Source: Chitinophaga pinensis (GTDB taxonomy: Bacteria; Bacteroidota; Bacteroidia; NS11-12g; UBA9320). From it: 64,000 nt of DNA. The stretch lies in contig CAMDSC010000002.1 of NCBI GenBank assembly GCA_945907065.1, positions 32,803 through 96,802 on the forward strand. Direction: 5' to 3'. How positions within the stretch are numbered: position 1 is the stretch's first letter; each line of letters begins with the position of its first letter. This document shows positions 29,593 through 56,600 of the stretch, in pieces. Under the pieces are notes generated by a model. The model ran no database searches, had not been told where the DNA came from, and saw nothing but the letters and a program-made list of their open reading frames with translations. The position numbers were made by a program, and so were the translations under genes.

Positions 29593-30579
29593 ATGACAAA
29601 TACTTTTTTTATCTATTGGAAACTTCCCGGCAAAAAAGAAATTTTTACCATTGAAAATCCTCAAATTAGTAAGATTTCAGAAACGGATTTATCAGAAGAA
29701 GGATTTATTTTTCTTCCTTATAATAAAAATCAATTTGGCTATTTAATAAAAGGTGAGATAAATAAAACCACTGACTTCAAATTTCCTCCATTATTAAAAA
29801 ATGAAACCCAGCTAAATTTTCATGATAATCATAAAAATTATCTTGCAATAGTTACTAAAGCGATTGATCAAATAAAGAACGGGGATTTCAAAAAAGCAGT
29901 TTTGGCTCATTCCTTTATTCAAAAATTACCTCCTAATTTCAATCTCAATCTATTTTTTGAAAAGCTTTGCAATCAATATCCCAATGCCTTTGTTTACTGC
30001 TTATCTATTGAAAATGAAATCTGGATTGGAGCTACACCTGAAGTATTTCTAAAAAAAGAAAACAATTTATTTTTGACGTATGCCCTTGCCGGAACCAAAC
30101 AATTAAATGAAGGGATAAAGTTTAGCAACAAGGAACTAGATGAGCAACTGCTAGTAAAAAATTATATAGTTGACAAGCTAATTAATTTTGAAACTGAGAA
30201 TATCGAAGTTTCCGAGGTTAGAGAACTCAATACCGGAAATCTTAAACATTTGATAAATGAAATACGATTTAATACCACAAAACCAATTGATATAATTAAT
30301 GAGATTCATCCAACACCTGCAGTTTGTGGCACACCATTAATGCAGGCATCTAATTTTATTAAACAAAATGAAAATCTAGACAGGGAATTTTACTCAGGAT
30401 TTTTAGGACCTATTTATAAAAATAGAGATTTTTCATTTTGGGTAAATCTGCGTTGCGCCAAAATTAGTAATGATTTAATAAAATTTTATGCAGGAGCAGG
30501 AATTACGGCAAATAGCGTGGCTGAAGCCGAATGGCAGGAAACCGAAAAAAAAATAGATACTCTTAGAACTTTACTATAG
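29593..30579 (+). CDS. menF: Isochorismate synthase (chorismate-binding family)
   Basis: Converts chorismate to isochorismate, the entry to menaquinone synthesis. The 328-residue protein has the chorismate-binding core: WIGATPEVFLK, FSNKELDEQLLVKNYIV, the HPTPAVCGTP motif, REFYSGFLGP and the C-terminal AGAGITANSVAEAEWQETEKK. It is shorter than many MenF/EntC proteins because the N-terminal region is reduced. The first ORF of the pair encodes the likely MenI thioesterase, 3 bases upstream. menD and the other men genes are not in the window. Its 3' end overlaps the convergent HIT gene by 6 bases. Confidence 0.9.
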   Translation: MTNTFFIYWKLPGKKEIFTIENPQISKISETDLSEEGFIFLPYNKNQFGYLIKGEINKTTDFKFPPLLKNETQLNFHDNHKNYLAIVTKAIDQIKNGDFKKAVLAHSFIQKLPPNFNLNLFFEKLCNQYPNAFVYCLSIENEIWIGATPEVFLKKENNLFLTYALAGTKQLNEGIKFSNKELDEQLLVKNYIVDKLINFETENIEVSEVRELNTGNLKHLINEIRFNTTKPIDIINEIHPTPAVCGTPLMQASNFIKQNENLDREFYSGFLGPIYKNRDFSFWVNLRCAKISNDLIKFYAGAGITANSVAEAEWQETEKKIDTLRTLL

Positions 30580-30966
30580 ATACTTTTTAATCATATCAGC
30601 GGTTGCCATAAGTTCTTCATTGGTTGGTTTCATTTTTTCTTTCGAAAAATCAATATCAGAAACCGAACTTATTGGAATTAAATGAATATGAGCATGAGGC
30701 ACCTCAAGACCTATGACCACAACCCCAATTTTTTTACAATCGATGGCAGATTTTATTCCTTTGGCTACTTTTTGTGCAAATAAATTTAGTGAAGTGTAGT
30801 CATCAGGCGCCATATCAAAAATATAGTCTATAGGTATCTTTGGTATTACCAATACATGTCCTTGCTTTAATGGGCTGATATCTAAGAAGGCCAAATGATT
30901 CGAATCTTCGGCTACTTTATGACAAGGAATTTCACCGCTTATTATTTTACTAAAGATACTGGCCAT
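30574..30966 (-). CDS. HIT family protein (histidine triad nucleotide-binding hydrolase)
   Basis: The 130-residue HINT-type protein hydrolyses adenosine phosphoramidates or related nucleotides. The start SIFSKIISGEIPCHKVAED and the histidine triad PHAHIHLIP near residue 95 are both intact. It follows greA on the same strand after about 30 bases, a pairing I recall as frequent in Bacteroidota. Its 3' end overlaps the isochorismate synthase gene by 6 bases. Confidence 0.94.
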   Translation of the reverse strand: MASIFSKIISGEIPCHKVAEDSNHLAFLDISPLKQGHVLVIPKIPIDYIFDMAPDDYTSLNLFAQKVAKGIKSAIDCKKIGVVVIGLEVPHAHIHLIPISSVSDIDFSKEKMKPTNEELMATADMIKKYL

Positions 30967-30997: not shown

Positions 30998-31471
30998 TTA
31001 AACTACAGAAATATCAAGTATTTCAAAATTTATGGTTCCAGCAGGCACCATTACTTCAACATGGTCTCCAATTTTTTTACCCATAAGCCCCATAGCTATT
31101 GGTGATTTAACTGAAATTTTTCCCAATTTAAGATCGGCTTCTTTTTCAGAAACAATTGTATAATTAACGCTCGAATTTGTTTTTTTATTTAGTACAGTAA
31201 CCTTGGTTAATATTCCTACTTTACTTAAATCTACTTTAGTTTCATCCAATATTCTACTATCTCCTAATATATTTTTAAGTTTGGCTATTTTCATTTCAAG
31301 CATTCCCTGAGCTTCTTTGGCAGCATCGTATTCTGCATTTTCCGAAAGGTCACCTTTTTCCTTTGCTTCTGCTATCTGCCCACTAATACGACGTCTTTCC
31401 ACTTTTTCCAATTGTTCTATTTCTTTCACTAAGGCATCGTATCCTTCCTTGGTCATGTAATTTATAGCCAT
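30998..31471 (-). CDS. greA: Transcription elongation factor GreA
   Basis: Rescues backtracked RNA polymerase by stimulating transcript cleavage. It has an N-terminal coiled-coil with the acidic tip (GDLSENAEYDAAKEAQ) and a C-terminal FKBP-like domain (SPIAMGLMGKKIGDHVEVMVPAG). The ORF track starts at 31519, but the extra 16 residues fall inside a strong terminator hairpin. I place the start at the internal ATG (31471, MAINYMTKEGYDAL), which gives the usual 157 residues. It lies downstream of the PorV-like operon, separated by that terminator, and is followed by the HIT gene. Confidence 0.95.
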   Translation of the reverse strand: MAINYMTKEGYDALVKEIEQLEKVERRRISGQIAEAKEKGDLSENAEYDAAKEAQGMLEMKIAKLKNILGDSRILDETKVDLSKVGILTKVTVLNKKTNSSVNYTIVSEKEADLKLGKISVKSPIAMGLMGKKIGDHVEVMVPAGTINFEILDISVV

Positions 31472-31496
31472 AATATTTAAAATTCTATTTAATGTG

Positions 31497-31539
31497 ATAT
31501 AAAAATAAAGTTGCACCAACCGTATTCGGTTGATGCAAC
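31497..31539 (-). terminator. Rho-independent terminator after the PorV-like gene
   Basis: A 13-bp stem (GTTGCATCAACCG/CGGTTGGTGCAAC on the minus strand, one mismatch) with a 4-base loop is followed by TTTATTTTTAT. It ends the TonB receptor/T9SS/PorV-like operon and separates it from greA. Confidence 0.8.
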
Positions 31540-31594: not shown

Positions 31595-32716
31595 TTATTC
31601 ACTTTGATTTCCTAGTGACATTTTTAAACCAATAGAATGAGTACCTGAAAAAGGACGAGTATCGCGATATGAATAATCTAAGGCAAAGCGATTGCCATCT
31701 TTTCCATATGGCAATTCAAAAGTTACCCCTCCCATTAATCCTGTACTGGCCGTGCGACGAGTATCGTAACTCATAATACCTTTTTCGTAAGCATAACCGG
31801 CACGAACCATAAACATACTTTTGTATATATATTCAGCACCAAATGTGGTTTGATTTAATGAAAAGGCATTGTAAGTAAAATTAGCTGCAAGTGATAGAGT
31901 ATGAAAATTAGTTTCTTCATTCTTATCAAGTTTAATATCATGGGCACCCCCAATATTAATTAATGCAGGAATATTATACTTAGCTATCCGTTGATTAACT
32001 GTAGCTTCCTGATTATCTTTCGGATTAAGTCTTTTAATAGAAATACCATCTCCTGAATACTTAACATCCGGTCCAATATTTTTTATTGATACGCCAAAAT
32101 GAGTATCGTCTGCTGTTTTCCAACTTGTTTTATATTGAATACCAGCATCAATGGCAACACCCTGAGCTTTTAAATTGGAAGCATTTTCAGAATATACTCT
32201 TAACAAAACACCCCCTGTAATTCGTTCTGTAAATTTCCGGCCATATCCTAAACCAATATTAGTTAAACGTGGCGAAAAATTCCCCAGTCCTCCATTTGGT
32301 TGTTGCACGGTAGTGATAGGTATATCGCCAAGATCAATAGAACTTATGGATAATCCTAGAGCATTATCATTCCCTAGATTTTGAGCAAAACCAAAACTGC
32401 TTATGTTAACACCTGAACCTGATAACCAACTTGTTCTGGCAAAAGCAATATCAGTTTTGGGAGTATTCACCAATCCTCCAATATTCATATACATGGATTC
32501 AATTCCTTTTATACTGCTTTGTGAAGCCCAACCTAAACCTGATGAACGAGCCCAACCGTTTATTACAAGTTGATTTGCACTGGCCTGCCCACCTCTGTCA
32601 GGGTTTCCGGCAAAGGAAGTAACACTTATCAATCCAAGGGCTATTATATTTACAATTCTTAATTTACTCATTATTCTATTTTTAAAACTTTTGAATTCGC
32701 TAATTTTTGGTTCCAT
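31595..32716 (-). CDS. PorV/PorQ-family outer-membrane beta-barrel protein
   Basis: The 373-residue protein has a signal peptide, then a conserved opening (ARSSGLGWASQSSIKGIESMYMNIGGL) equivalent to the PorV/PorQ 'AR..G.G.A......S..WNPA.L' signature, followed by alternating amphipathic strands that end in a C-terminal Ser/Gly/Leu-rich strand. PorV family members act as shuttle or anchor proteins for T9SS cargo at the outer membrane. It is the last gene of a three-gene unit behind a TonB receptor and a 1349-aa T9SS protein, which suggests it serves that protein. The predicted N-terminus (MEPKISEFKSFKNRIMSK) extends 15 residues before the usual signal peptide; Met16 is the alternative start. 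Confidence 0.78.
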   Translation of the reverse strand: MEPKISEFKSFKNRIMSKLRIVNIIALGLISVTSFAGNPDRGGQASANQLVINGWARSSGLGWASQSSIKGIESMYMNIGGLVNTPKTDIAFARTSWLSGSGVNISSFGFAQNLGNDNALGLSISSIDLGDIPITTVQQPNGGLGNFSPRLTNIGLGYGRKFTERITGGVLLRVYSENASNLKAQGVAIDAGIQYKTSWKTADDTHFGVSIKNIGPDVKYSGDGISIKRLNPKDNQEATVNQRIAKYNIPALINIGGAHDIKLDKNEETNFHTLSLAANFTYNAFSLNQTTFGAEYIYKSMFMVRAGYAYEKGIMSYDTRRTASTGLMGGVTFELPYGKDGNRFALDYSYRDTRPFSGTHSIGLKMSLGNQSE

Positions 32717-32739
32717 ATTTTATGAATATTTTAATCTTT

Positions 32740-35700
32740 TTAAAAGGAATCCAAATCTAATTCGCGCATCACACCCATCCATTTAATTACCTTTTCACCA
32801 AGCCCAGGAGCATTCACATGAATAAGATACACACCACTGGCTATTGGCACTTTGGCATCATTTTTCATATCCCACAATACATCCGTTGATTGATCATCTT
32901 TTTTAATCCTTCTAACTAGAGTGCCATCAATAGTATAAATTGAAATATCACATCTCATAGGTAAATTGGTAAACTTCACTGTGTTTTCAATAGAGGTATT
33001 TTCATAATCAGAATATGCATAATATGGATTAGGAACTACGTTTATCATATCTAATGCTTTTATTCCATGTTTCGGTGCAACTTCGGTAAATACTTCATTG
33101 GTATTAAACTCGTACCGTGGATTATCAAAATTTAAAGTATTAGCTATGGTATTATAAAATCTATACGGTTTTTTAACCCTAATTTTAAATCGCACTTCAG
33201 TTTCAGGCACTGGCATTCCATTTACTTCCTTCATTTTATAACCAGTAGCCATATATGTCGGTATAACATACATACACTGATACATCACTTTATTTATAAT
33301 AGTGGTTCTGGCAGTTTCAGTCATCAAATTATCTGCTGCTTTAAGTATATCATAATAGGCTTGTCCTTGATCATAAATTGGCAATAATGGCTGCTGAGAA
33401 GGAACAATTCCTTGATATGAGCCCATTAAATAAATATAATGACGACCACCATTGGCAATTATTCCTGTTCCACCATTTGCATAAAAACCTGCATCTGAAG
33501 TTGGATTCCATTTCATATCACGACCATTGTTTGAGTATTGACGAGAATCTTCACCAAAGACAATATTCAATCGTTCTCCGGTTTCTACATTTATAGCATA
33601 TCCAGGAAACCAACTGCGACCAGTTTCTCCAGGTATTTCTGTTCCATCTATATTTAACGAAGCATGAGCTCTTAAATTAAATTTCTTATTTGCCCCTTCA
33701 CTTAATATATTGTCATCACTCATTTCAAGCACACAAGAACGGGTCCATTTCTTTTGATCTGGTGTAATAACAAATTCAATACTCGATAATTGGTTTAATC
33801 CCCATTGGCTATTAGTAGGGGTGCCATCAAAAGCGACACCTTGTATTTGAGTGGCACCAAATTTGGCACCTGCATTACTTGTAAAACGAGAGGCTAAACG
33901 ATATGGCCCAACGCGACCTTCCCATAATTTTTCATAACTTTCAAATGGGTCTATTGCATTTCCATTTATAGCATAATCATTTTCTGTAGGATCTTTAAAT
34001 TGATCTGCTTTGCCATTGGTACCAGAGTGTAACCAATTCCAAAAAGGTACACCATCAATATCTCTCATACCTGAAAGCCACTCTTTTCCTTTATCGGCAA
34101 AAATAACTTCACAACCTAATGAACCATTTGTTTCATCAATATCTGGATTTCCAGGGTCTAATACTTGATCAATGGATACTGCCATTCCCCAATCGGCAAG
34201 TTTTGCAGGTTCTTTATACCAAGCGGTATCTGTTCTTTTTGATGCAAATTGCCATTTATTACCTTTTGTAATTATTTGCTCGTTATGTATATTTATCTTT
34301 TCATCAGAAAAAATTGTATCAGGAATTCCTCCTTCATTTTTCTTAATAAGAATCCATCTGGTAACATGCCCTTTAACTCCTGCTTCACGTTTGCGAATTG
34401 CAGAAGCGGTTCCGCTCAAATTTATTGAATCTTTCAATTCAATAAGTACAAGTTCAAAATCTCCTTTTGGAACTTTTAATGGATCAACTATGGAAATCTT
34501 TACTGGTCCTTTACCTACTTCATAAACAGGATTAAGAACTTTATAGGGCGGGGCACTAACAATTTCAAATTCCGTTTCAGGAGTTAAATCAATAATATTA
34601 CCTCCATTTCCACTTCCTTCAATTCTTTTTATGCGTGGGCCACCACCATAGCTTGTATTTAATTTAGCTCCACCTAAGCGAGGTTCAGTATTTCGAGGTG
34701 ATGCAACTAATATTGCACCCTTTTCTGGCAATTGCCCAAGGAGGTATTGATCCTCCGTACTTAAAGGAGCCGCAGAATAAGGGAAAATCATATAATAATA
34801 TGTTTTAAAATTCACTAAAGATTTATTAGAACCGGTTGCAAAGGCATCTTCTTTAATCGATAATGAATGTACTAATCCTTTATTTGGTGCATCTATCATT
34901 AATTTTGGTAATGCTTGCCCTAAGGTTACATCACAAGGTTTATTTACCAAGCGAATAACGTTGTTCTTTAAATCGCAAATAAAAATTTCACGAACCTTTT
35001 CTGCATCTTCTAAATCTCCAGGACCAGCACTTCCATCTTTACATTGGAATATACGATATCCTTCAAATTTATAAACTTGTGGTTTTTGGTTTGCATCAAG
35101 TACTGTTTTACTAAATCCTTCAACATTCTTAGTATTACCCAACATTAATATTAATTCATTGTCTAATTCCTGAACTGTTGTAATAACAGCTTCGGGGCCT
35201 AGTAATGGAACAAAACAATTATTAAATAATGTTTGTGCTTTATCACTGGCTAATTTTAATAATGCCAAAGAACCTTCGGCACCACCGGTACTTGCCCTTG
35301 CCCATACAATACCTACGGTAAGTTTATTAAATGCTCCAGACTTTAGGGTAAATGGTCCGCTGGTTTGCATAAAACGTCTGTCGGCTGCTGGATTTCCAGC
35401 GGAACGTTCATTCCAGTTTCCCGTAACTTTAGGGTCTGTATCAAATGGAAATAAGTAATTGGTACAGTTTGTTCCTGTACGACCGCTTTTTCCATCATTG
35501 GTCATACATTTACCATTTTTCCATCTACCGGTTAAATAATAATAATAATGAATGGGGCGCTGAGGGTTTCCAAAATCAGTAAAATCATTATCATAGTAAA
35601 CAAATTTACTCATTCCTAATTCGAAAGTAGTATCTCGTCCATTAATGGTTGTATCCTTTTTAGGTCCTTCAAAAAAATCAACACCAACTGAAGGTGGATT

Positions 35701-36789
35701 TAAACCATAACCTAATATACCTTCATCGTTATCATCACCGTTATAGGCAAATCCTAAACTTCTTCCAACATCGCATCCTACATAGTCATCTTTATAATTT
35801 CCTAAGTCAGCATCTACCCACTCTCCAAAATAAGTATCATAAAGTGTACTTGCTCCACGATTTACAATTCGAGTGGTATAAAATGTCATATTATTTATTT
35901 CATCATTTGATGCATATGCAAATGCAGTAGTATGTAATTCCAATCCAATAGGCAATGCTCCTGATTCAGCATGATTATTTCCCTTATCGTTATAAACAAA
36001 ATAGAGCATTTCTGTAGGTTGCCCATCTATTAAATTTTTCACTTCATCTTCCTTCGTTGATGGAAAATCTGTAACTTTTTTACCTCTGCACTCATTTTGT
36101 AATACAGGAAAATCTCCACTAATAGGATCATACGTTCCATTTTTATTAGCATCATAGTAAGGTGCCATTGGTGGCATTGTAATACTAGAATTACCTGGCC
36201 AACCTGCAATATTCTCAGATAAGGTTGGGACCCCGCTTAAAATATTACTACGATGTTCTAAAATTTCAGATTTTAATACTTTATAAATATTATCCCATTT
36301 CTTACAAGTCACTTCATCGGTGTTGGATTGATTGTCAAGTGGTCCTGGCCAAAAGTCGGAACCTCCTTGTCTGTAGGTCATAGCAGCAAGTTTTAACGCA
36401 CCAGATCCTCCTTTACCATCATAACCTCCCACCCATATAGCTCCTGAAAACAAAGAATGTTTTCTCACGGTGTTTACATTGGTAGCAATTTTGGGTATCT
36501 CATATTTTGGATTGGAGAGATCCCACCACATATCACCACCGTTCAAAATCTTTGTTCGCACATTGTTCACATCCAAGTCGGCACTAGCAGTAGAAGGATC
36601 GCAGGATGCTGCAAATTTCATTAGCTTATGGGGCGGAACTACAGGCTTTACAAGTTTTTCTCCGATGTTTTCTTTTGCAATAAGGTTAGTTGCCATTCCT
36701 AAAGCAAATAATGAAAACAGTATAAATTTAATTGTTTTATTCATTCTATTATTTTTAAAATTATGGTATTCGAAATATTTAGGTTTCAT
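32740..36789 (-). CDS. Large secreted protein with T9SS-type C-terminal domain, TonB receptor operon
   Basis: A 1349-residue exported protein; no enzyme family recognised. A 15-residue N-terminal extension precedes a typical signal peptide (MNKTIKFILFSLFALGMATNLIA). The body has no obvious repeats but includes Asp/Gly-rich stretches (DANKNGTYDPISGDFP) like calcium-binding or thrombospondin-type loops. The C-terminus (VVPNPYYAYSDYENT... IYTIDGTLVRRI... VYLIHVNAPGLGEKVIKWMGV) matches a T9SS sorting domain by its PNP start, strand pattern and Gly-Lys-rich end. It lies 21 bases after the TonB receptor gene and 23 bases before the PorV-like gene. It is probably a surface protein working with the receptor. 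Confidence 0.8.
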   Translation of the reverse strand: MKPKYFEYHNFKNNRMNKTIKFILFSLFALGMATNLIAKENIGEKLVKPVVPPHKLMKFAASCDPSTASADLDVNNVRTKILNGGDMWWDLSNPKYEIPKIATNVNTVRKHSLFSGAIWVGGYDGKGGSGALKLAAMTYRQGGSDFWPGPLDNQSNTDEVTCKKWDNIYKVLKSEILEHRSNILSGVPTLSENIAGWPGNSSITMPPMAPYYDANKNGTYDPISGDFPVLQNECRGKKVTDFPSTKEDEVKNLIDGQPTEMLYFVYNDKGNNHAESGALPIGLELHTTAFAYASNDEINNMTFYTTRIVNRGASTLYDTYFGEWVDADLGNYKDDYVGCDVGRSLGFAYNGDDNDEGILGYGLNPPSVGVDFFEGPKKDTTINGRDTTFELGMSKFVYYDNDFTDFGNPQRPIHYYYYLTGRWKNGKCMTNDGKSGRTGTNCTNYLFPFDTDPKVTGNWNERSAGNPAADRRFMQTSGPFTLKSGAFNKLTVGIVWARASTGGAEGSLALLKLASDKAQTLFNNCFVPLLGPEAVITTVQELDNELILMLGNTKNVEGFSKTVLDANQKPQVYKFEGYRIFQCKDGSAGPGDLEDAEKVREIFICDLKNNVIRLVNKPCDVTLGQALPKLMIDAPNKGLVHSLSIKEDAFATGSNKSLVNFKTYYYMIFPYSAAPLSTEDQYLLGQLPEKGAILVASPRNTEPRLGGAKLNTSYGGGPRIKRIEGSGNGGNIIDLTPETEFEIVSAPPYKVLNPVYEVGKGPVKISIVDPLKVPKGDFELVLIELKDSINLSGTASAIRKREAGVKGHVTRWILIKKNEGGIPDTIFSDEKINIHNEQIITKGNKWQFASKRTDTAWYKEPAKLADWGMAVSIDQVLDPGNPDIDETNGSLGCEVIFADKGKEWLSGMRDIDGVPFWNWLHSGTNGKADQFKDPTENDYAINGNAIDPFESYEKLWEGRVGPYRLASRFTSNAGAKFGATQIQGVAFDGTPTNSQWGLNQLSSIEFVITPDQKKWTRSCVLEMSDDNILSEGANKKFNLRAHASLNIDGTEIPGETGRSWFPGYAINVETGERLNIVFGEDSRQYSNNGRDMKWNPTSDAGFYANGGTGIIANGGRHYIYLMGSYQGIVPSQQPLLPIYDQGQAYYDILKAADNLMTETARTTIINKVMYQCMYVIPTYMATGYKMKEVNGMPVPETEVRFKIRVKKPYRFYNTIANTLNFDNPRYEFNTNEVFTEVAPKHGIKALDMINVVPNPYYAYSDYENTSIENTVKFTNLPMRCDISIYTIDGTLVRRIKKDDQSTDVLWDMKNDAKVPIASGVYLIHVNAPGLGEKVIKWMGVMRELDLDSF

Positions 36790-36810
36790 ATGTTTCTAAT
36801 CAGTTTGTTA

Positions 36811-39800
36811 TTAAAGCGTGAATCTTACTCCTAAACGCATCAATCTTGGTGCAGCATAGTTAAATGGATTATTTACACTGATATTATATAAATCAATAAA
36901 TGATTGCTGACTTACTTCTTGTGAAATTTTTTGCTGACCTTCAGGTGAGCTTAAATATCCATCATCGTTAGGCAAACCAGAGAAAGCATAAACACCATTA
37001 ATAATTTTACTATTGAAAAGATTTTGAACGGTAAAAAACACAGTCATTCCTGTTACATTAATTCTATCTTCCTTAATTTGTTTCTTCTTAAATTCATGAT
37101 AGTGTTGGAAATTCACATCAGCCTTTAACTGCCAAGGCATTCTTGAACCATAAGGATTTCCCTTTATTTGACTACGAGTTACCGTTCCTAAGGCTGATAG
37201 GGCGGTGGCGGTAGGGCTTAAATTGGCTGTATATGGTGCACCTGAACGAGCTACAACAATAAAGCTTGCATCTGAATTTGCAAATATCCTTTTGCCAAAC
37301 CATACTGGCCCATTATATTCTTTACCGCCTTGATATCCATAACTAAATGTGGTATTAAAATTATGACGGAAATCAACATCTAAAGGGTAAAGTGAACGAA
37401 GATTGGGTTGATTGGCTTGCAATAATGCGCCTTGTGAATTTATATTAGAACCTGTTCCATCAGCAAATAATAAAGTGTAGTTTGCTGACATTTGGAAATT
37501 TTTTAAACCTCTATACTGATATTCAGCTCTGAATGCTTTGTTGGTTGAAAAATCAATGTTGGCATAGCTTGTATAAGATACAGGATATGCTTGACTATAG
37601 CGATATTGTCCAAAATCATTTCGTATTTCTGAATAAGACATTATTAAACTAATAGAGGAAACGTCATTCAATTTCTGTTTGTAACCCAACTCATACATAG
37701 TTTTAATACGTGGCTTTAAAGCTGCATTTGGCAAAAATCTGCTTTGGTCAGATTCAAGGAAATAATAAGAACTAATTGGTGTAAATGTAGCACCATCAGT
37801 AGGCCGCTGGGTTAATACATCATAATTAGCAAAGAAAAGTGCTTCCTTATTAATTGGAAACGAAAACCAAACACGTGGCAAGATATTGACTTGTGGTTGA
37901 TAATCTTTAAAAGCTTCTTTTACAATATTCTTATTATTTGCATCAACAAGGTAAGGTTGTATAATATTTTTTGAAGTTTGTTGTGCAAGTATTTCAGGAT
38001 TTGCAACTTCTACACCTTGGGCATCATACCAAGTATTATCTTTTCTATAACCTAATATAATTGGATTATTCTGATTAGTTACATATACTGAGTAATCATC
38101 TTTAATATTATCTGGAATAGGGTTGTTTTTATTTATTTGCTCAATATTATCTAGTTCTCCAACTGTTTTAATTGGATAAAGTGAATATGGATCTTTTAAA
38201 GTTGATTGATTTGCATCATATCTTTCTACCCTTACCCCAACTCTAAAAATCATATCTTTTATTGCAAATTTATCTTGCAACCAAGCTGCACTGTATATTG
38301 GCGCAAATGAACCAATACTGCGATTTTGTTTATCATTAAGGAAGTCATTTATACTGAATTTTTTGCGGGTTCTATTTCCTAAATAATCGTATCCTGAATA
38401 ACTCACATATTGATTATTTTTATTATTTAAATCATCAGCACTAAACATATTAAGATTTAAATCTTGTGGTGATAAAGAATTTACATCTATAAATGATGTC
38501 TCTGTAATTTTATTTCCATATGCATCTACTGCTCCTTTTGCTATTAATTTAGCTCTTAAATTTTTATCAAATGTTGATTGTTGGTCGGCATCTACTCTTA
38601 CCTTATATTTTACTGTATCCAAAAATCTTCCATCCTTATCATACGATTGAATACTATTTAAAATGTAATCCCCTTGTTTCAGTTGATCTAAACTGACAAT
38701 ATGCCTATTGGCTATTTGTGGCATTAATATCCAAAGACTATTGGCGCTTAAACCATAAGAACTTAATATATTTTGTTCATAGGTCATACCGAACTGGATA
38801 TCGTGCTTATTTTCTTTATTCTTACCTGTATTAATTGAAGCCTCACCAACAGCATATGCTGAAATTCTTTCTTGTTGGCTTTTACTATAACCAGCCAATA
38901 AACTACCCGGATTAGCCCATAATGAATAAGTGGTTGGTAAAGAATATCCATTTAGCAAACCATTAAATGTAGCAATTGCTCCATCGCTTGGTGCACCATT
39001 TAATCCATATGTATTCTTAAAATAATCAAAGGCATTTTCTGTATATCTGCTTCTCAATACATTTTTATCACTGGCCTGATAAGTAATCATTGTATCTCTA
39101 AATCCCGTAAGTTCTAAATACCCCTGACGAACTACCGTATCCATTTTACCATTATTATCAACAATAAATTTCTGTGCTCCTTCTTTATATTCGTATACAG
39201 GAGCTCTAAAATGTGTGAATTTACCAATATATCCATAATCAAAAACATTATCTTGATGCATACTATGCTGGCTTTTACCAATACTAGTTTGATAATCGGC
39301 ACGAATGGAATAAAATGCATCTGAAACTAAAGGCTTCTTAGCATCTTTTTCTTTCTTATCACCACTTTGATACCCTATTTTTTGAGTATATCTTAAATAT
39401 CCACGGTAAGTTTGATTGCTGTTTGTAGAGTATTCATCATAATTTAATAATGATGAAGTATAGCTATAGCCTTTTGATTGCTGAACAGCCCCGGTAGCAA
39501 AAAGTGTTAAAACAGATGTTTTAGAAGGGGTATATTCAAATTTTGCGTTTAAAACTCCTGCATACAATGGAACATTTTGACGGGCTTTATTAAGTACCAA
39601 ATCGTTTTGAGTTAAAAAAGATGAAGTGGTAATAAAACCTCCTCCATTTGGATTAGCAGTTAAAGGATTTTCTTTAATATTATTAAGAACATCCTCTTTC
39701 ACAGTCCATGAACCAAGAACAGTTGGACTTGCATCTTTTTGGTATTCTAAATGGCCTGAAATATTATAACCAAAAAGCACTCTTTCTTTATCTCCACCGC

Positions 39801-40596
39801 CTTTATTAATAATTTTTAAAGGACCTGAATAAGCTAATTCTAAAGTATTGTAATGCCACTTGTCAAAAAGACTGGAAGTAACATATTCATAATATTGAGA
39901 CCTTCTTCTGCTAGGGCCTTTAGTTGTAATATTTATTGCTCCTCCTGTAAGGTCACCAAACATGGCAGGTACACCACTTTGTATAAGGTCAATTTGTTCC
40001 TGACCAATTGTTGGCATTGCTGAACTACCTATAACCGCTACACCGTCTACAAATAAACGGGTTCCATCTGTTCTGTTACCCAAAAATGAAATCCCACCAC
40101 CCGAAGAGTTTACACCCGAAGAAGTATTAGCAATAGCACCTAAACCTCTTTGTGGTAATTTTAAAAGATCTTTTGATGTAAGGGTATTCTTATTGGCATC
40201 TTCTTCCACCAATTTTTTTCTATATCGGATAACATCTACTGTGCCTAAATCTTTACCATCTTCACTAGCTACCGATAATTCAATATTCCAAAAGGTTATT
40301 TTGCTACTATTTACAGTTATTCCCTCAGCCATATATTTGGTATAGCCAACATAACTTACCTCAATATCATATTCACCCGGATCAATTCCTTTAATAAAAT
40401 AATTTCCATTATCATCGCTTGAGGTTGAAGCTTTTACTATTCCTTCTTTTTTTACCACCACAGTGGCATAGTCAAGAGCTGAACGGGTTTTTTTGTCTGT
40501 AACTTTTCCTCTTATCTCACCGTAATTAGATTGAGAGTAGCCCAAACCTGACAAGAGAATTAGTACTAGAATGCTTAAGTAGTGTTTTAAACTCAT
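36811..40596 (-). CDS. TonB-dependent receptor with carboxypeptidase-like regulatory domain
   Basis: An outer-membrane active transporter of 1261 residues. A signal peptide (LSILVLILLSGLGYS) is followed by a CarboxypepD_reg-like domain (GEIRGKVTDKKTRSALDYATVVV...GNYFIKGIDPGEYDIEVSYVGY), a plug domain (LPQRGLGAIANTSSGV... LFVDGVAVIGSSAMPTIGQEQIDLIQSGVPAMFGDLTGGAINITTKG) and a large barrel with a C-terminal aromatic strand (RLMRLGVRFTL). No SusD partner is adjacent, unlike glycan-utilisation loci. Instead it heads an operon with the 1349-aa T9SS protein and a PorV-like barrel. The substrate is unknown. Confidence 0.93.
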   Translation of the reverse strand: MSLKHYLSILVLILLSGLGYSQSNYGEIRGKVTDKKTRSALDYATVVVKKEGIVKASTSSDDNGNYFIKGIDPGEYDIEVSYVGYTKYMAEGITVNSSKITFWNIELSVASEDGKDLGTVDVIRYRKKLVEEDANKNTLTSKDLLKLPQRGLGAIANTSSGVNSSGGGISFLGNRTDGTRLFVDGVAVIGSSAMPTIGQEQIDLIQSGVPAMFGDLTGGAINITTKGPSRRRSQYYEYVTSSLFDKWHYNTLELAYSGPLKIINKGGGDKERVLFGYNISGHLEYQKDASPTVLGSWTVKEDVLNNIKENPLTANPNGGGFITTSSFLTQNDLVLNKARQNVPLYAGVLNAKFEYTPSKTSVLTLFATGAVQQSKGYSYTSSLLNYDEYSTNSNQTYRGYLRYTQKIGYQSGDKKEKDAKKPLVSDAFYSIRADYQTSIGKSQHSMHQDNVFDYGYIGKFTHFRAPVYEYKEGAQKFIVDNNGKMDTVVRQGYLELTGFRDTMITYQASDKNVLRSRYTENAFDYFKNTYGLNGAPSDGAIATFNGLLNGYSLPTTYSLWANPGSLLAGYSKSQQERISAYAVGEASINTGKNKENKHDIQFGMTYEQNILSSYGLSANSLWILMPQIANRHIVSLDQLKQGDYILNSIQSYDKDGRFLDTVKYKVRVDADQQSTFDKNLRAKLIAKGAVDAYGNKITETSFIDVNSLSPQDLNLNMFSADDLNNKNNQYVSYSGYDYLGNRTRKKFSINDFLNDKQNRSIGSFAPIYSAAWLQDKFAIKDMIFRVGVRVERYDANQSTLKDPYSLYPIKTVGELDNIEQINKNNPIPDNIKDDYSVYVTNQNNPIILGYRKDNTWYDAQGVEVANPEILAQQTSKNIIQPYLVDANNKNIVKEAFKDYQPQVNILPRVWFSFPINKEALFFANYDVLTQRPTDGATFTPISSYYFLESDQSRFLPNAALKPRIKTMYELGYKQKLNDVSSISLIMSYSEIRNDFGQYRYSQAYPVSYTSYANIDFSTNKAFRAEYQYRGLKNFQMSANYTLLFADGTGSNINSQGALLQANQPNLRSLYPLDVDFRHNFNTTFSYGYQGGKEYNGPVWFGKRIFANSDASFIVVARSGAPYTANLSPTATALSALGTVTRSQIKGNPYGSRMPWQLKADVNFQHYHEFKKKQIKEDRINVTGMTVFFTVQNLFNSKIINGVYAFSGLPNDDGYLSSPEGQQKISQEVSQQSFIDLYNISVNNPFNYAAPRLMRLGVRFTL

Positions 40597-40682: not shown

Positions 40683-41675
40683 TCAAGGGAATTTTTGCTC
40701 TTCTTTAAATCCTTTTTCAAGGTGGGACGAAAGGTTGTAAAATTCTTTAATTTTAGTGGCCAAACTTTCCGAAATCTTTTGATAAGATTGGCGTGTCCAG
40801 CCACCGATGTGTGGTGTTAATACTACATTTGATAATGACCTTAATTTTTCAAATTCGGCCGTTTCTAAATTATTAAGTTGGTTAATTCGTTCGTTTTCGA
40901 GCACATCGGCTGCAAAGCCAATGATTTTTTTTGTTTCCAAAGCTTCCAGCACATCTGCTGTTTTTACTATCATTCCACGTGAGTGATTTAATAAACGGAA
41001 CGGCTTTGAAAAATTATTAATAAAATTTTTATCTACTAAATATTTTGTTTCCGATGTTAAAGGTATATGAAGTGAAACTATATCTGCATTCTGAAAAATT
41101 TCATTCATATCGGTTTCTTTTATCTGTGCATTTCCAAAACCTGATTTATATTTATCATAAGCCAAAATTTGAACTCCAAAACCGCCTAATACTTTTGCAA
41201 ACCGGCTTCCGGTATTTCCATATCCAATTATCCCAACGGTTTTCCCTTCCAATTGATCGCCACAGTTTCCTTCTCTATCCCATTTTTGGCTCCTTACTTC
41301 TTTGTCAGATTTTGTAATATTAGCCAGCAGGCTTAATAACATTCCCAAGGTATGCTCGGCCACAGCCTGACTGTTAGCTTCGGCTGTATTTATATAAGCT
41401 ATTTCTTTTTTATCCAACCATTCGGTATCTAAATTATCAACTCCTGAACCTGCTCGGGCCACAAGTTGTAAGTCATTAGCAAATTGGCAAAGTTCACTAT
41501 TTACAAAAACTTTACTTCTTACAATAAGGATTTGTTTATTGGTTAAAGCCAAAGGAACATCGGCCGGATTAATAGCTGGCAAATAAGTAATATCAAATTT
41601 TTGCAACCCGCTCTGCTCAAAAAAGCAAGGATGCAAATCATCAATTACTAAAATATTTATTTTATCACTTGCCAT
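40683..41675 (-). CDS. serA: D-3-phosphoglycerate dehydrogenase-like 2-hydroxyacid dehydrogenase
   Basis: Most likely oxidises 3-phosphoglycerate to 3-phosphohydroxypyruvate for serine synthesis; another 2-hydroxyacid is possible. The 330-residue protein has the catalytic Arg in VARAGSGVDN, the NAD-binding motif GKTVGIIGYGNTGSRFAKVL, FAADVLENE with the catalytic Glu, and HIGGWTRQS with the catalytic His. It is the short form without an ACT domain. It follows murI on the same strand after about 134 bases of no obvious content; a weak TATTTTCG box about 30 bases upstream may be its promoter. The gene symbol is given on family grounds. Confidence 0.82.
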   Translation of the reverse strand: MASDKINILVIDDLHPCFFEQSGLQKFDITYLPAINPADVPLALTNKQILIVRSKVFVNSELCQFANDLQLVARAGSGVDNLDTEWLDKKEIAYINTAEANSQAVAEHTLGMLLSLLANITKSDKEVRSQKWDREGNCGDQLEGKTVGIIGYGNTGSRFAKVLGGFGVQILAYDKYKSGFGNAQIKETDMNEIFQNADIVSLHIPLTSETKYLVDKNFINNFSKPFRLLNHSRGMIVKTADVLEALETKKIIGFAADVLENERINQLNNLETAEFEKLRSLSNVVLTPHIGGWTRQSYQKISESLATKIKEFYNLSSHLEKGFKEEQKFP

Positions 41676-42781: not shown

Positions 42782-43285
42782 TTAGTTTATCAATAATTTC
42801 TTTTTCACATCATTCATAAGATCATTTGCACTATTGGTTACCAATACGCCTAATCCTTCCGAACTATCTAAAACATAATCAAAGCCCTTGGCTTTAGCTA
42901 CATCATTAATTGCAGTTTTAGCCTTTTTATAAATAGGCATATAAAGTTCTTCTTTCTTCTTTTGCATATCCTGCTCAGCGGTTTGGCTAAACTGCTGGAT
43001 ATCGGCCTGCAAAGCTTCTAATTTACTTTTCTTAACCTCCATTACTACAGGTGGAGAAATGGTATCAGCCACATACTCTTGATACTTAGTTTGAAGTTCG
43101 GTTTGCATGGTTTCCAATTGATTACGAAGTACTCCTTCATAATCTTTTAGCTTTTTTTCAAAATCTTTCATCTCAGGCATTGCATTCATAAGTTCCGAAG
43201 AATTGATATGAGCAATTTTGCTTTGTGCACTAGCTCCAAAACATAAGGCAATGGCTGTAAATACTGTTAAAATTAATCGTTTCAT
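42782..43285 (-). CDS. OmpH/Skp family periplasmic chaperone (second copy)
   Basis: A 167-residue Skp-like chaperone that holds unfolded outer-membrane proteins in the periplasm. A signal peptide (LILTVFTAIALCFGASA) is followed by KIAHINSSELMNAMPEM, a long charged coiled-coil arm (about 40-120), and the C-terminal DYVLDSSEGLGVLVTN block. It lies 29 bases downstream of the larger ompH paralogue, so both come from the promoter at about 44045. The pair followed by murI matches an arrangement I recall from many Bacteroidota, except that bamA, often upstream, is absent here. Confidence 0.92.
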   Translation of the reverse strand: MKRLILTVFTAIALCFGASAQSKIAHINSSELMNAMPEMKDFEKKLKDYEGVLRNQLETMQTELQTKYQEYVADTISPPVVMEVKKSKLEALQADIQQFSQTAEQDMQKKKEELYMPIYKKAKTAINDVAKAKGFDYVLDSSEGLGVLVTNSANDLMNDVKKKLLIN

Positions 43286-43314
43286 TTATTTGTTATTTAT
43301 ATTTATTTGTTATT

Positions 43315-43971
43315 TTATCGTCTTGGTGGTAATCCGTCGGAAGATGGAGGTAAATCGGTTTTTTGCTTCTCTTTAACTTTTTCCTTTTCTTCCTTTGATG
43401 GCGCTACACCAAGTAAAGTAAGAATGTTGTCGCTTTTATCATATTTGGCATTGCTAAAAAGCATAGTCATATCACTTGATTTGTCAAAAATAAAATCCAA
43501 AGCATCCTCCTTCGCTATTTTTTGTATGGTTTCAAAAACCTTGTCTTGAATAGGCTTTACTAATTCCTGACGTTTTTTAAATAATTCACCTTCATATCCA
43601 AATTTATCTTGTTGAAATTTTTTGGCTTCTTTTTCCTTATTGATTATTTCATCCTCACGCTGTTTTTGCTGATCTGGCGTCAAAAGAATCTTTTCAGCTT
43701 GATATTCTTTATACATTTTATCAATCCCTTCATATTTTTCATCTACCTCCTTTTGCCATGTTTCAGCTATTTCATTCAGTTTCTTTTGAGCCGATTTATA
43801 ATCGGGCAATAAGGATAAAATGTACTCTGTATCAACATATGCAAACTTTTGCGCATAATTAGCAAAGGGTATCATTACCATAAAGACTAATGTTAATACT
43901 AGCTTTTGAAATCCTGCTTTACCCATACTACTTTTCAATTTTGATTGGAATTCGTGAATTTTTAGTTTCAT
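43315..43971 (-). CDS. OmpH/Skp family periplasmic chaperone (first copy)
   Basis: The Skp-like paralogue. The track begins at 43998 (MFNYKLEIK...); the ATG at 43971 (MKLKIHEFQSK...) is equally plausible and is adopted here. A 17- to 25-residue polar extension precedes the signal peptide (LVLTLVFMVMIPFANYAQ), then KFAYVDTEYILSLLPDY, a long coiled-coil, the conserved FDKSSDMTMLFSN block and a C-terminal Lys/Pro-rich tail (DLPPSSDGLPPRR) beyond the usual family end. A textbook promoter lies upstream. Confidence 0.9.
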   Translation of the reverse strand: MKLKIHEFQSKLKSSMGKAGFQKLVLTLVFMVMIPFANYAQKFAYVDTEYILSLLPDYKSAQKKLNEIAETWQKEVDEKYEGIDKMYKEYQAEKILLTPDQQKQREDEIINKEKEAKKFQQDKFGYEGELFKKRQELVKPIQDKVFETIQKIAKEDALDFIFDKSSDMTMLFSNAKYDKSDNILTLLGVAPSKEEKEKVKEKQKTDLPPSSDGLPPRR

Positions 43972-44044
43972 TTTTATTTCTAATTTATAGTTAAACATGC
44001 TTACAATTTGTCAGCCTAAAAAACATATAACGTAAAATAAGCGG

Positions 44045-50419: not shown

Positions 50420-50660
50420 TTATTTCTTTACTTCAAATCTTAAAATAGTGGTTTTACCTGTATCTGTGGAAAGTTTAACAAGATAAATACCAGCTGCAAG
50501 GTTATGATTATCAATACTAATTGTAGAGCTAAAACGTTTACCTTCCATTACTTGACGACCTAACTGATCATAAATAACCATATTAACCATATCTCCCGTG
50601 CTCACATCCAAAGTAAAATTATCTGTGCTTGGATTTGGATATAAGTTGGCCGCAAAAGCA
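50420..50660 (-). other. T9SS C-terminal sorting domain of the giant protein
   Basis: The last ~78 codons read NLYPNPSTDNFTLDV, a VIYDQLGRQVMEGK strand pair and IYLVKLSTDTGKTTILRFEVKK, the type A sorting domain pattern. It directs outer-membrane translocation and cleavage or anchoring. Confidence 0.85.
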
Positions 50661-53600
50661 TTTTTTGTAAATGGATTTATTCCTGCAGTTGGAGTAAGGG
50701 TAACATTATAATTAGCAGGATTTCCATTACAACCATTTACACCTTTTTCTGTTACAGTAACTGTGCCAGTGGCTCCGGTTAAATTCCATTTTACTTGAAT
50801 CAAACTTGTACCATTATTTTGAACCACACCATTAACCGCCTGCCAGTTATAAGTAGAACCAGGAGTTGAAGCAACGCTGTAAACTTGGGTACTTCCATTA
50901 TTAGCTGTAGTTGGTCCGGATATAGTAATAGCCGAAGGATTTGGCAATACCCTAACAAAATAATAGGCTGAATCCTTGCAAGAGAATGGCGTTGTAACAT
51001 TTAGTGTTACTTTATAATTGCCAGCCGCAGCATAAGACCTTGAAGCATTTGGGGTAGATATGGTTGACCCATCTCCCAAATTCCAAAAACTGCTATAGGT
51101 TCCTGCTAAAATTGTAGTGTTGGTATAAACATAACTATTACCATTTAAGCATTGTGTTTCATTGTTATGAGTAAATTCGGCTATAGGACTTGGATGAACG
51201 GTAACTTGTTTTGATATACTATCAATACACCCATCAGCAGATATTACACTTAATCTAAATGTATACGTTCCCGGAGCTGTAAAGTTTTTCACAACATTTA
51301 TGCCTCCAATACTTGACCCGTCTCCTAAATTCCACACACGTGTGATTGAACCTTGGCTAATTGATGAAGCATCACTTAACGAAAATAGATGTCCGTTGTA
51401 ACATTGTGAGTTATTATTAATATTAAAGTTTGCAATAGGTTTTGGACTTACCATTATAGTGCTCATTGCTGAATCTTTGCAACCGTTATTACCTGTCACA
51501 ATTAATTTCACATTATAGGCTCCTGAGCTAGCATAATTCTTAGTTGGATTTGCTGCTGTTGATGTACTTCCATCACCCAAAGCCCAAGCTCTTGTGAATG
51601 TTCCGGATGATATTGTTGAATTATCGGTAAAGACAAAATTATTACCATTTATACATTGACCAATATCATTAACACTAAATGAAGCTTTAGGTGCAGAAAA
51701 CACATTCACTGCCTTGGTTACTGAGCTTACACAACCATTAATAGATTTTACATTTAATATTACATTGTAAGTTCCAGATGCACTGTAGTTATAAGTTGGA
51801 TTAAAGCTATTTGAACTACTTCCATCACCAAATTGCCATTGCGCATCATTTACCCCCGTAGAAGTATTAACAAATACTATGGATTGACCGATACAACGAT
51901 CCGATGCTGTAAAATTAGCAACAGGATTAGCAAAAATTGTAATTGTTCTTGTAATTACTTCTGAGCAGCTATTTGCATTAGTTGCAGTTAATTTTACAGT
52001 GTAAGTTCCTGCTGCTGCATATACTTTGGTAGGTGATGCTATTGTTGATGTACTTGCATCTCCAAAATCCCATAAATATGTGCTACCTCCAATTGATGTA
52101 TTGTTAAATGTAACTAACCCCCCTGCACAAACGTTGGTGGCATTGAAATTTGGAATTGGTTTAGAATAAACCAACACTGAACTTGTTGCTGAATTTACAC
52201 AACCTTTATCAGTGGTTACTGTAAGATTTACTGTATAATTTCCTCCTGAAGCATAGGTGTTGGTTGGATTGGTATTGCTACTAGTATTACCATCACCAAA
52301 TTTCCATTGATTAGTCATGTTTCCAGCTGAAAGTGATGAGGTATTAGTAAACGTTGCCGTTAATCCTACACAGAAACTGGATGGATTAGTAAAGGAAACC
52401 GCTGCTCTTGGATGCACTGTAACCGAATTAGTAGTGGTATCTTTACAACCATTAGGAGAAGTTACTATCAATTTTACACTATAAGTTGATGGACTCGTAT
52501 ATCCTTTTGAAGGATTAGTAGAAGTTGAAGAATTTCCATCTCCAAAAGTCCATTCATGTCCAACAGCACCTGTTGAGTTACTAGTAAATGAAAGATTATC
52601 ATTTGTACAGCCATTATTTACAATAAATGAAGCAACCGGTCTTGGCCAAATAGTAACCGACTTAGTCAATGAATCTTTACAACCATTGCTGCTAACTGAT
52701 ACCAATTTTACGGAATAATTACCAGACACATTGTAAATATTTGTAGGATTCATAAGTGTGCTTGTATTTGAATTACCAAATGTCCAATTATAGGTTGCCC
52801 CATTTGTGGTTGTATTAGTAAAACTCATTAATCCACCGCGACAAATTGGATCAGGAGCGGCAGTAAACGAAACTGAAGGACGAGGATAAACTGTAATTGT
52901 TTTGGTTACAGAATCTTTGCAACTGTTCACAGAAGTTACTACAAGTTTGACGCTATAAGTATTTGCGCTTGCATAAGTATACGTTGGTGAAGTAGCAGCA
53001 CTTGATTTGCCATCACCAAATTGCCAAACATAAGCATTAGCGCCGGTTGATTGGTTTGTAAAGCTTACTGCGGTGCCTAAACATTGGTTTGCTGCAGTAA
53101 ATGCAGGCACAGGCTTAGCATAAATAACAATTGTATTTGTAACAGAATCTTTACAGCCAAAAGTATTAGTAACTACAAGTTTTACATTATAATTTCCTGC
53201 AGCCGTGTAAGTTTTTGATGGACTACCAACCGTTGAAGTTGTTGCATCACCAAAATTCCAAGTATTTAAAGAAGCTCCTGTACTTGTATTATTAAAGGTT
53301 ATACTATTTCCTAAACAAGCATTACTACCCGTAAATAAGGCTTTTGGCGAACTATTAACTGTATATGATTTTGCAACTGAATTAACGCAACCGTTGGAAG
53401 AAGTTGAAGTTAGTGAAACAGTATAAGTTCCCGCTGTAGGATAGGTATAGGTAGGATTGGTTGCAGTAGAACTATTTCCATTTCCAAAATTCCAAGAATA
53501 GGTACTTGCACCTGTTGAAGTATTTGTAAAAGTACTTAAAAATCCATTACAAACATTGGCAGTAGTAAAGTTGGCCACAGGATTCGGATAAATGGTTACA

Positions 53601-56600
53601 GTATTTGCTACTGAATCTAAACATCCATTACTAGAGGTAACTTTCAATTTAACACTATAAGTATTTGCACTGGCATAGCTATTACTTGGATTAACATTTG
53701 AAGAAGTATTACCATCACCAAAATTCCAAGAGTAACTAACGGCTCCGCTCGATGAGTTATTAAAGTTAGTGGTTGTTCCTATACAATTATTGGATACAGA
53801 AAAAACTGCTTTTGGTTTACTAAATACATTAATTGATTTAACTAATGAGTCTTTACAACCAAAACTAGATGTGGCTACTAACTTAGCGTTATAAGTAGCG
53901 GCAACTGAATAGGTTTTAGTAAATGTTGAACTTGTTGTTGCACTCGTTGTACCATCGCCAAACGACCATGCCAATGAAGCATAATTGGTAGAATTATTTG
54001 TGAATGATGTAGCTTCAGGAAAACAATTATTTGTTGCTGTAAAGCTTGGTGTTGATTTAATATTAAATGCAACCGTTTTAGTTATTGAATCTTTAAATCC
54101 TCCTGGTAATGAAATTTTAAATTTAACATTATACGTTCCTGGGGAGTTATAGCGTTTACGAGCATTTTGGACATTAGACTTGGTTCCATCACCAAAATCC
54201 CAACTATATACAAGACCTGAACCAGCACCGCATGCATATACTGTATTATCAGTAAATATTGCAGAATCTCCTTGGCATTTTAATACAAAAGTGAACGAAG
54301 GTAAAGGTGTAGTTGCTACTATAACTGATTTTGTTAAAGAATCCTTACATCCCAAGTTACTAGTACCAACTAAGGTAACGTTATAGGTACCACTTGATGA
54401 ATATGTTTTATTAGGAACACTTGAGGTACTTGTTCCACCATCGCCAAATTTCCACAAATACGATAAAGTACCCGAAGATATATTTGAAGTATTGGATAAA
54501 GGCATTGGATCATTAAAACAATGGTTTGAAGCCGTAAACACAATATTTGGTTTTGCAAGAGTCCTTATTTTTAATGCATTACTTGTTCCATTTGGGCAAC
54601 CTGTATTGCCAGCTAATCTTTGGAAATAAGTTAATCCTGAAACTGCAGGTGATGAATAATTCGATGATGTAGCTCCACTTATGTTATTCCAATTTATACT
54701 ATCGGTAGAGGACTGCCATTGGAATGTATAACTTCCTGGACCTCCTGATGGAGCGGAAATTTGTGTAAATCCAGCTGGGGTGTATCCTGCACAAACAGTT
54801 TGTCCACTTCCTATTGTTCCTCCTGTAATTGGTGAAAATAATTTTATTTTAATACCATTTGTTCCAGCGGTAGGACATGAGCCTGAAGTAACAAGTGAAC
54901 GGTAATAAGTTACACTTGTAACATTGGTTGGAGTAAAGGTAGCTCCTGTTTGTCCCGTGATATTACTCCATGTAGATGAATCAGTTGATTGCTGCCATTG
55001 ATACGTATAGGTTCCAAAAGCTCCTGTTGGTGTTGTAATAAAACTTAATGCAGAGCCTGTTCCATTAAAACAAATGGTTTGGGGGGAACCAATAGTGCCT
55101 GCAGATAATACAGCACCACACTTAATTCTAACGATATTACTAAATGATGGCCCACAACCAACAGTTGTTTTTACAGATCTACGATACCATCTATTTGATG
55201 TAAGTGTGCCTGGTTGATAATCTATACCAGTTGCTCCACTAATATCAGTATATGTTGTACTATCGGTAGAAGATTGCCACTGATAATTATATGAGCCAAT
55301 ACTTCCTGATGCAGCTGAAGAGTTGGTAATTAATGATGGGGCTGTATTAAAACAAATGGTTTGGTTACTTCCTATTACACCAGCATTGAGATTGGTTAAT
55401 ATTGATACCGCTCGTGATCCGCTATCTATACAACCATTATTGGATGTTGAAATAATTTTGACAGTATAAGTGCTACCTGCAGTAGCATAAGTACGATTTA
55501 CAGAGTTACCTGTTCCTGTTCCTCCATCACCAAAACGCCATAAGTTAGCTGTTATTGTTCCTCCTGATACCGTAGATGTTGAAACAAACTTTACGGCGTT
55601 TCCAGCACATGTATCGCTATATGTAAATGTAGGTTTAGGTAAAGGATTCATATTCATCGTAATTGTTGATGAATCATTCATTCTTACATCCTCATTCGAT
55701 AAATTGGAAAATGATTTTACGGTATATGTTCCACCTAATGACGAGTTAAATGTTCCAGTAAAAGTATATGAAGCTGTTGCATTAGAAGCAAGAGGACCAG
55801 TAAATACTTCTGAAATATTTAATGTAGCTCCACCACTAACTACTAATCTCACAGGAATATTGCTTTGACTTTGTAAGCCAAAATTCTTTAAGGTTACAGT
55901 TATAGCAGTTGCCGGTTTTCCACATGTATTATTTACTGAGGTAATGGCACTAACCCCAACATCATTTTGGAAAGCTTCGCTTGAGCCAATTGTAGGAGTG
56001 GTGGCATTTCTCAACAAATTTGTAAAGTCAGTTGTAATTCCTGATATTGGAATAGCTTTACCATAAATCATTCCAGCTTCAGTATTAGCTCCTTTCAAGT
56101 TAAGATTACCAATAGCAGTATTTTGGAATAAATTAGCTGGATTAATTTCGCCAGTTGAAGTACCAGAAGAAATATTTAAGGAGTTTATATCACAATTTGA
56201 ATTAAGTTTCCAATCGCTAAAATTATAATCAGAAATATTCCATAGCCCTATTGGATTGCCTGAAGTGTTGCTTAACAAATTAAAATTACTTGCATTTGGC
56301 TGCCATCCTGTTTGAAAGGTTGTAATAACATTTTGGTTTCCAAAAGCATAATGCTTTCCTGTTCCACCCTTTCTATCATTCATAAAAATGTTGTTTTTAG
56401 AGTTGACAACCGATACGTATGAAGAGGTTACATAATTATTTCCTCTTAAATATCCAAAAGATGAATGAACTCCAGAGGTGGCAGTACCGCCAATATAAAT
56501 TGAATTAAAATATGAATTAACTTGGAAGTTACCGGATACAGCTTGCCAAATTCCTATATACATCGGACTATTTGTTTGTCCCATTCCTAGTGATATTTGG

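Follow-up and report, generated by a model that had tools for sequence, protein, structure and literature searches.

Three consecutive genes on the reverse strand of the window, by which we mean the whole 64,000-nucleotide stretch of DNA analysed, encode a TonB-dependent receptor/transporter (TBDT), a large T9SS-exported surface protein (BIG) and an outer-membrane barrel of the PorV/PorQ family (PorVL). The first-pass annotation had described an operon ending in a terminator, and an ORF check of the 64-kb window located all three ORFs on the (-) strand at the same positions, followed by a terminator-like hairpin. From upstream to downstream, the locus and its neighbours comprise:

40683..41675 (-): D-2-hydroxyacid dehydrogenase, upstream neighbour, present in 12/12 complete trios examined in the order
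36811..40596 (-): TBDT, 1261 aa, with signal peptide and beta-barrel
32740..36789 (-): BIG, 1349 aa, likely start M16 (36744); a supersandwich-like domain at the N-terminus is followed by an extensive beta-rich middle part and a specialised CTD
35218..36618 (-): BIG residues ~58-524, with approximate limits set from predicted strands and conservation
32743..33060 (-): CTD of BIG, a type A-related sorting domain that covers residues 1244-1349 and bears an extra conserved tail
31595..32716 (-): PorVL, PorV/PorQ (FadL-type) outer-membrane barrel, 373 aa, likely start at the internal Met 32671
31510..31539 (-): hairpin of 13 pairs resembling an intrinsic terminator, with the T-rich tail TTTATTTTTA behind it
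30998..31519 (-): GreA, conserved downstream neighbour, a marker of the ancestral site outside the system
30574..30966 (-): HIT-family protein, conserved downstream neighbour

Layout, synteny and distribution of the operon

Measured on the longest ORFs, the genes are 21 and 23 bases apart as first reported, but the likely true starts give other distances. M16 of BIG, 15 codons into its longest ORF, is the start in orthologues and is >90% conserved, and the PorVL start likely also lies 15 codons inside the longest ORF. As orthologues point to internal Met starts for BIG, and likely for PorVL too, the true intergenic gaps are probably ~66 and ~68 bases. The 15-codon stretches ahead of these starts are alike (32671-32716 for PorVL, KPKYFEYHNFKNNR; 36744-36789 for BIG, EPKISEFKSFKNRI) and perhaps represent a shared leader or translation signal. 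Overall, terminator-like sites are not in excess (5 found versus 6.1 expected from shuffles); among them, only the hairpin at 31539-31510 has a long stem. Two adjacent Skp/OmpH-family genes, then a MurI-like racemase gene, closely precede the operon at 42782-43998. SkpA, a Skp homologue, belongs to the extended T9SS translocon of Flavobacterium (PMC10994853).

We fetched 80 regions and assigned their genes by means of profiles for which the window proteins served as seeds. The order TBDT, BIG, PorVL recurred in 71 of 81 classified loci from several classes of the phylum, and several of the exceptions are loci severed by contig ends. On one strand and with short gaps, the trio was intact in 12 of the order's 13 loci, the window being one of them, in 41 of 48 loci of the class, in 18 of 20 loci of other classes and in 62 of the best 80 named-genome loci, a set that overlaps in part with the classified loci. 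The first-pass annotation had asked whether the three families co-occur in order across Bacteroidota and had taken scattered homologues to speak against a system; the loci proved strikingly syntenic, with the same order in most of them. As this order recurs across the phylum, the trio is not a chance neighbourhood.

Downstream of the trio, greA was found in 97 and the HIT-family gene in 95 of 124 non-redundant complete trios, and the arrangement hydroxyacid dehydrogenase-trio-greA-hit was complete in 12 of 12 cases in the source's order. Across the class (loci L088-L147), greA-hit is the pair that ancestrally adjoins the trio, and it serves as a useful marker of empty sites. Most trio-less genomes inspected have kept it, and in 4 of 16 trio-less genomes (L295, L296, L303 and L304) the dehydrogenase directly or nearly adjoins greA-hit with no trio between. 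Since the flanking genes thus remain together, gain or loss of the trio as a unit, and specifically unit loss, is the simplest reading of the empty sites. In other classes, none of 18 intact trios lay beside greA. As these classes keep the trio away from greA, its cohesion is not mere inertia of one site. Neither the three genes nor their conserved neighbours include one for a SusD-family lipoprotein, so that the difference from Sus-type loci claimed at first sight stands as far as tested, and no glycan-utilisation genes are conserved beside the trio. Lineage-specific expansions occur in L090, L100, L124, L160 and L161, with tandem upstream TBDTs, or with an additional BIG or TBDT-BIG pair beside the trio.

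A BIG relative was present in all 58 genomes of the source's family and order, mostly as one full-length orthologue of 47-90% identity, in 240 of 296 genomes of the class and in 157 of 393 genomes sampled across the phylum, the last figure including more distant homologues of other classes. Restriction of BIG to the source's order was ruled out by these class-wide and phylum-wide matches. The trio is an ancient, usually single-copy Bacteroidota operon. Among the class genomes, 239 of the 240 BIG-positive ones encode the T9SS translocon protein SprA, the sole exception being a 130-contig assembly, and 49 SprA-positive genomes have no BIG. The association, taken from a hand cross-tabulation of two genome lists of the class and uncorrected for kinship, gave a Fisher p of 4e-5. 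The 56 BIG-negative class genomes fall in about a dozen families. All 10 sampled class members of the Flavobacteriaceae, a family recognised via F. johnsoniae PorV (PDB 6h3i), were BIG-negative, and no BIG body emerged when 121 Flavobacterium genomes were searched with a profile. Almost all named carriers among the best 80 loci are MAGs from uncultured Chitinophagales, Flavobacteriales and Bacteroidales, those of the Flavobacteriales belonging to Cryomorphaceae, Crocinitomicaceae and Schleiferiaceae. The initial suspicion of an undescribed system was upheld in that we found no description of the trio in openly accessible papers other than preprints; it is, however, not peculiar to the window but a phylum-wide operon. 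It apparently lacks a name because the main model genus does not carry it and its named carriers are nearly all uncultured.

The transporter and the body of BIG

The first gene was correctly recognised as a TonB receptor. The window copy carries a CarboxypepD_reg domain (53.7 bits, residues 28-107), and among 34 orthologues Plug was matched in 29 and the TonB_dep_Rec beta-barrel in 13; the window copy alone gave only a weak plug match (plug ~134-225). A TonB-box-like motif, LGTVDVIRY..., is partly conserved in the orthologues. Judged by these plug and barrel matches, the protein is a TonB-dependent transporter. Three of the 34 orthologues matched the OMP_b-brl_4 barrel, which we take to be Oar-like.

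Except for its T9SS type A CTD, BIG contains no known domain. In agreement with the first-pass annotation, no Pfam enzyme domain was detected in 38 orthologues, and PDB sequence searches with BIG or its profile left the body unmatched and returned a weak match to the PorZ CTD. The structure of residues 55-1249, predicted from 72 homologues, reached a pLDDT of 88.1. Its best Foldseek matches in the PDB were dextran dextrinase, GH94 phosphorylases, GH63 and GH116 (E 1e-5 to 1e-2), with TM-scores of at most 0.22 over whole chains and the match confined to one domain. These enzymes share an N-terminal beta-supersandwich, and the most conserved region of BIG, residues ~58-524, is predicted to adopt a beta-supersandwich-like fold. 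GH94, GH63 and GH116 enzymes combine the supersandwich with an (alpha/alpha)6 catalytic barrel, for which the BIG model has too few helices; its sandwich domain is alike by fold. An ordinary glycoside hydrolase, as raised by the Foldseek matches, was rejected on the lack of the helical catalytic barrel, and nothing in this confident model reveals the ordinary known enzyme that would have spoken against the original proposal. From the paucity of helices we infer that BIG may be a non-enzymatic, glycan-related binder. Residues 325-340 form an invariant acidic loop, WVDxDLGxxxDDYVGCD, and a possible metal-binding site.

The sorting domain of BIG and its pairing with PorVL

The description of BIG as T9SS cargo is borne out by TIGR04183 CTD matches in 32 of 38 orthologues, together with a signal-like N-terminus. 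In the window protein, the type A CTD scored 21.2 bits, below the cut-off of 23, and 26.7 bits, above it, in the genome scan. With a Sec signal peptide and a TIGR04183 CTD, BIG is a type A substrate as far as its sequence tells. Its last 106 residues share ~40-48% identity across classes, though the general type A model scores low, and end in an extra conserved tail, GVMRxxDLDxF. When the window's genus was left out of its construction, a BIG-CTD profile gave 163 bits on BIG versus at most 18 on the other CTDs examined, namely PorU, PorZ and the 30 top-scoring cargo CTDs of the own genome. The best non-BIG CTD was that of PorU; PorZ and PorU are weakly linked to BIG (13-18 bits), and some cargo CTDs score nearly as high. 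In the 121 Flavobacterium genomes, the BIG profile matched only the CTD of mostly ~760-800-aa proteins, one of which, when checked, was PorZ (576.7 bits), and in the own genome the best CTD match of the PorZ model after PorZ itself was BIG (28.9 bits). BIG is not PorZ: the whole-length model NF052228 matches it only at the CTD, and the true PorZ is encoded elsewhere in the source genome (550.8 bits). PorU and PorZ CTDs are uncleaved and stay on PorV and PorQ, respectively, and a review proposal holds that CTDs are protected by cognate PorV-like barrels (PMC10202324, PMC5562754). The profile comparisons mark the BIG CTD as a conserved type A subclass closest to these uncleaved signals, a class that suggests retention rather than the cleavage by PorU expected of type A substrates.

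Additional lone BIG genes occur in five genomes, all of which have a complete trio elsewhere. Long lone paralogues retain the special CTD (118-174 bits); short ones (499-665 aa) have generic CTDs. For instance, a 499-aa relative (L146:8284-9783, G000:C3) joins the BIG N-terminal domain to a generic type A CTD, and similar short paralogues occur in L141 and L218. We rejected the 499-aa protein as a second BIG copy, as it has neither the special CTD nor the operon. The own genome (G000, 2.7 Mb) encodes ~137 type A CTDs over the cut-off, which amounts to a very large T9SS secretome for a genome of this size. In the window, a single ORF of 4484 aa (50420-63874, (-)) with a strong type A CTD at its end (55 bits) represents a giant T9SS cargo.

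PorVL belongs to the PorV/PorQ family (NF033709; 141 bits versus a cut-off of 90), as annotated at first, and remains below the equivalog cut-offs of PorV (68.5/250 bits), PorQ (69.9/220) and PorV2 (30.1/325). All three are separately present in the source genome, PorVL being its fourth PorV-family barrel. Its PDB sequence match was PorV (6h3i, 75 bits), and its barrel, of the FadL-type fold, had PorV 8gl6_F as best Foldseek match (E 1.4e-14). Every type A CTD examined to date is reported to rely on one shared PorV (PMC12618676), and PorVL need therefore not be required. By analogy with PorQ for PorZ, however, PorVL is better read as a dedicated BIG anchor or shuttle than as a generic shuttle.

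Two lines of evidence bear on this pairing. The CTD and PorVL of a same-genus locus (L168), fused in frame through the stop, were modelled with AlphaFold as one chain. The model reached a pLDDT of 84.8 and a pTM of 0.84 with disorder only in the linker and at one end, and it placed the CTD on PorVL; it represents the cognate pair only and yields no interface. We estimate that an unplaced CTD would permit a pTM of ~0.70-0.75, while 0.84 needs a CTD placed to ~5 A. In partial Mantel tests on distance matrices from 88 loci, the CTD tracked PorVL after removal of greA, hit, TBDT and the BIG body (r 0.17, p 0.007), a modest effect in a type of test sensitive to shared history. The BIG body was correlated with TBDT (r 0.37, p 0.003) and not with PorVL (r -0.01); the CTD was also correlated with TBDT (r 0.35), and thus its tree signal with PorVL is not exclusive. 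This pattern agrees with a putative division of labour between a CTD that goes with PorVL and a body that goes with TBDT. Docking of the CTD on PorVL and coupling of the body to TBDT are both supported by prediction; retention in vivo is inferred. We consider a retention step involving the CTD and PorVL probable.

A proposed surface receptor complex and its alternatives

We propose that the operon products form a surface receptor complex. BIG would use Sec to cross the inner membrane and the T9SS to cross the outer one. PorVL would take up its CTD and keep it uncleaved, and would so anchor BIG on the cell surface, in parallel to PorQ-PorZ and PorV-PorU. The exposed body would bind a ligand from outside the cell, with a saccharide or glycoconjugate as the likeliest kind, and hand it to the TonB-driven TBDT in a SusCD-like manner, with T9SS parts replacing the lipoprotein. 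We regard the full receptor model as evenly balanced between right and wrong; a role in uptake is presumed, and any particular ligand would be a less secure choice. The broader proposal, put forward tentatively and at slightly less than an even chance, is a phylum-wide class of TonB-powered receptors whose T9SS-exported ligand-binding subunit is held permanently by its own PorV-family barrel, at once a third uncleaved CTD/barrel pair and a counterpart of SusCD.

Lacking the features that define SusCD, PorZ and PorQ, the trio is none of these. Like PorZ-PorQ and PorU-PorV (PMC5562754, PMC10202324), it combines a CTD-bearing surface protein with a PorV-family partner barrel. Unlike them, it has its own paralogues in one operon with a TBDT, a body that differs from both the propeller of PorZ and the protease of PorU, an extra conserved C-terminal tail, and a barrel below the cut-offs of PorV, PorQ and PorV2. 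For type B CTDs, tight CTD-shuttle pairing has been proposed, with the cognate PorP/SprF encoded downstream (PMC12618676); here too the cargo gene directly precedes its own shuttle barrel, but the trio has a type A-like CTD, a PorV-family barrel instead of PorP/SprF, and a TBDT upstream. With SusCD/RagAB it shares a CarboxypepD_reg TBDT coupled to a surface partner protein, whereas SusD, a lipoprotein partner and adjacent degradative genes are missing and the partner would be exported by the T9SS and retained on a barrel. In BamG-BamH of the Bacteroidota BAM complex (PMC12611786, PMC12578637), a FadL-family barrel likewise holds a surface protein by extracellular loops. BamH is a lipoprotein, however, and an assignment of PorVL-BIG to this pair, suggested by the FadL-like BamG, was rejected on the T9SS CTD of BIG and its lack of a lipobox.

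Among the alternatives, the best survivor, although unlikely, is that BIG and PorVL are an accessory T9SS surface module similar to PorZ-PorQ and not an uptake system. BIG would then bind a surface glycolipid or polysaccharide and pass it to the sortase, or organise the cell coat, and TBDT would move or signal something related. The resemblance of its CTD to those of PorZ and PorU, its presence almost only together with SprA, a genome with so many type A CTD proteins and the link of supersandwich folds with glycans are all in line with such a module. It would, however, be a second one next to the separate PorZ, PorQ and PorV, 49 SprA-positive genomes do without its BIG, and the TBDT in the operon is left unexplained. 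Slightly more improbable is that shared ancestry or co-regulation keeps the genes together, that they form no complex, and that BIG is ordinary PorV-handled cargo. A single inherited site beside greA-hit in the class could reflect inertia, and lone BIG genes in five genomes fit this reading, yet the order is kept at other sites in 18 of 20 loci of other classes with greA never adjacent, the trio is absent as a unit where its flanks remain, and the CTD is set apart as a distinct subclass by its profile scores. Very unlikely is an aid of TBDT in the export or energising of BIG without ligand import, comparable to the TBDT Oar, which acts in Myxococcus for the exported protease PopC, not a T9SS substrate (PMC6434023): the CarboxypepD_reg domain, the correlation of both BIG body and CTD with TBDT and the three OMP_b-brl_4 matches favour it, but BIG already has an export route (T9SS CTD, co-occurrence with SprA), and lone BIG genes exist without an adjacent TBDT.

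The receptor complex remains our preferred reading. A nameless three-gene operon has persisted throughout most of a major class, as reflected by BIG in 240 of 296 genomes, and it makes a direct prediction on the open question of how some T9SS CTDs escape cleavage. If the proposal is true, BIG and PorVL would be a private type A-like shuttle pair, in contrast to the current view that all type A signals use PorV, and the trio would link the T9SS to TonB-driven uptake.
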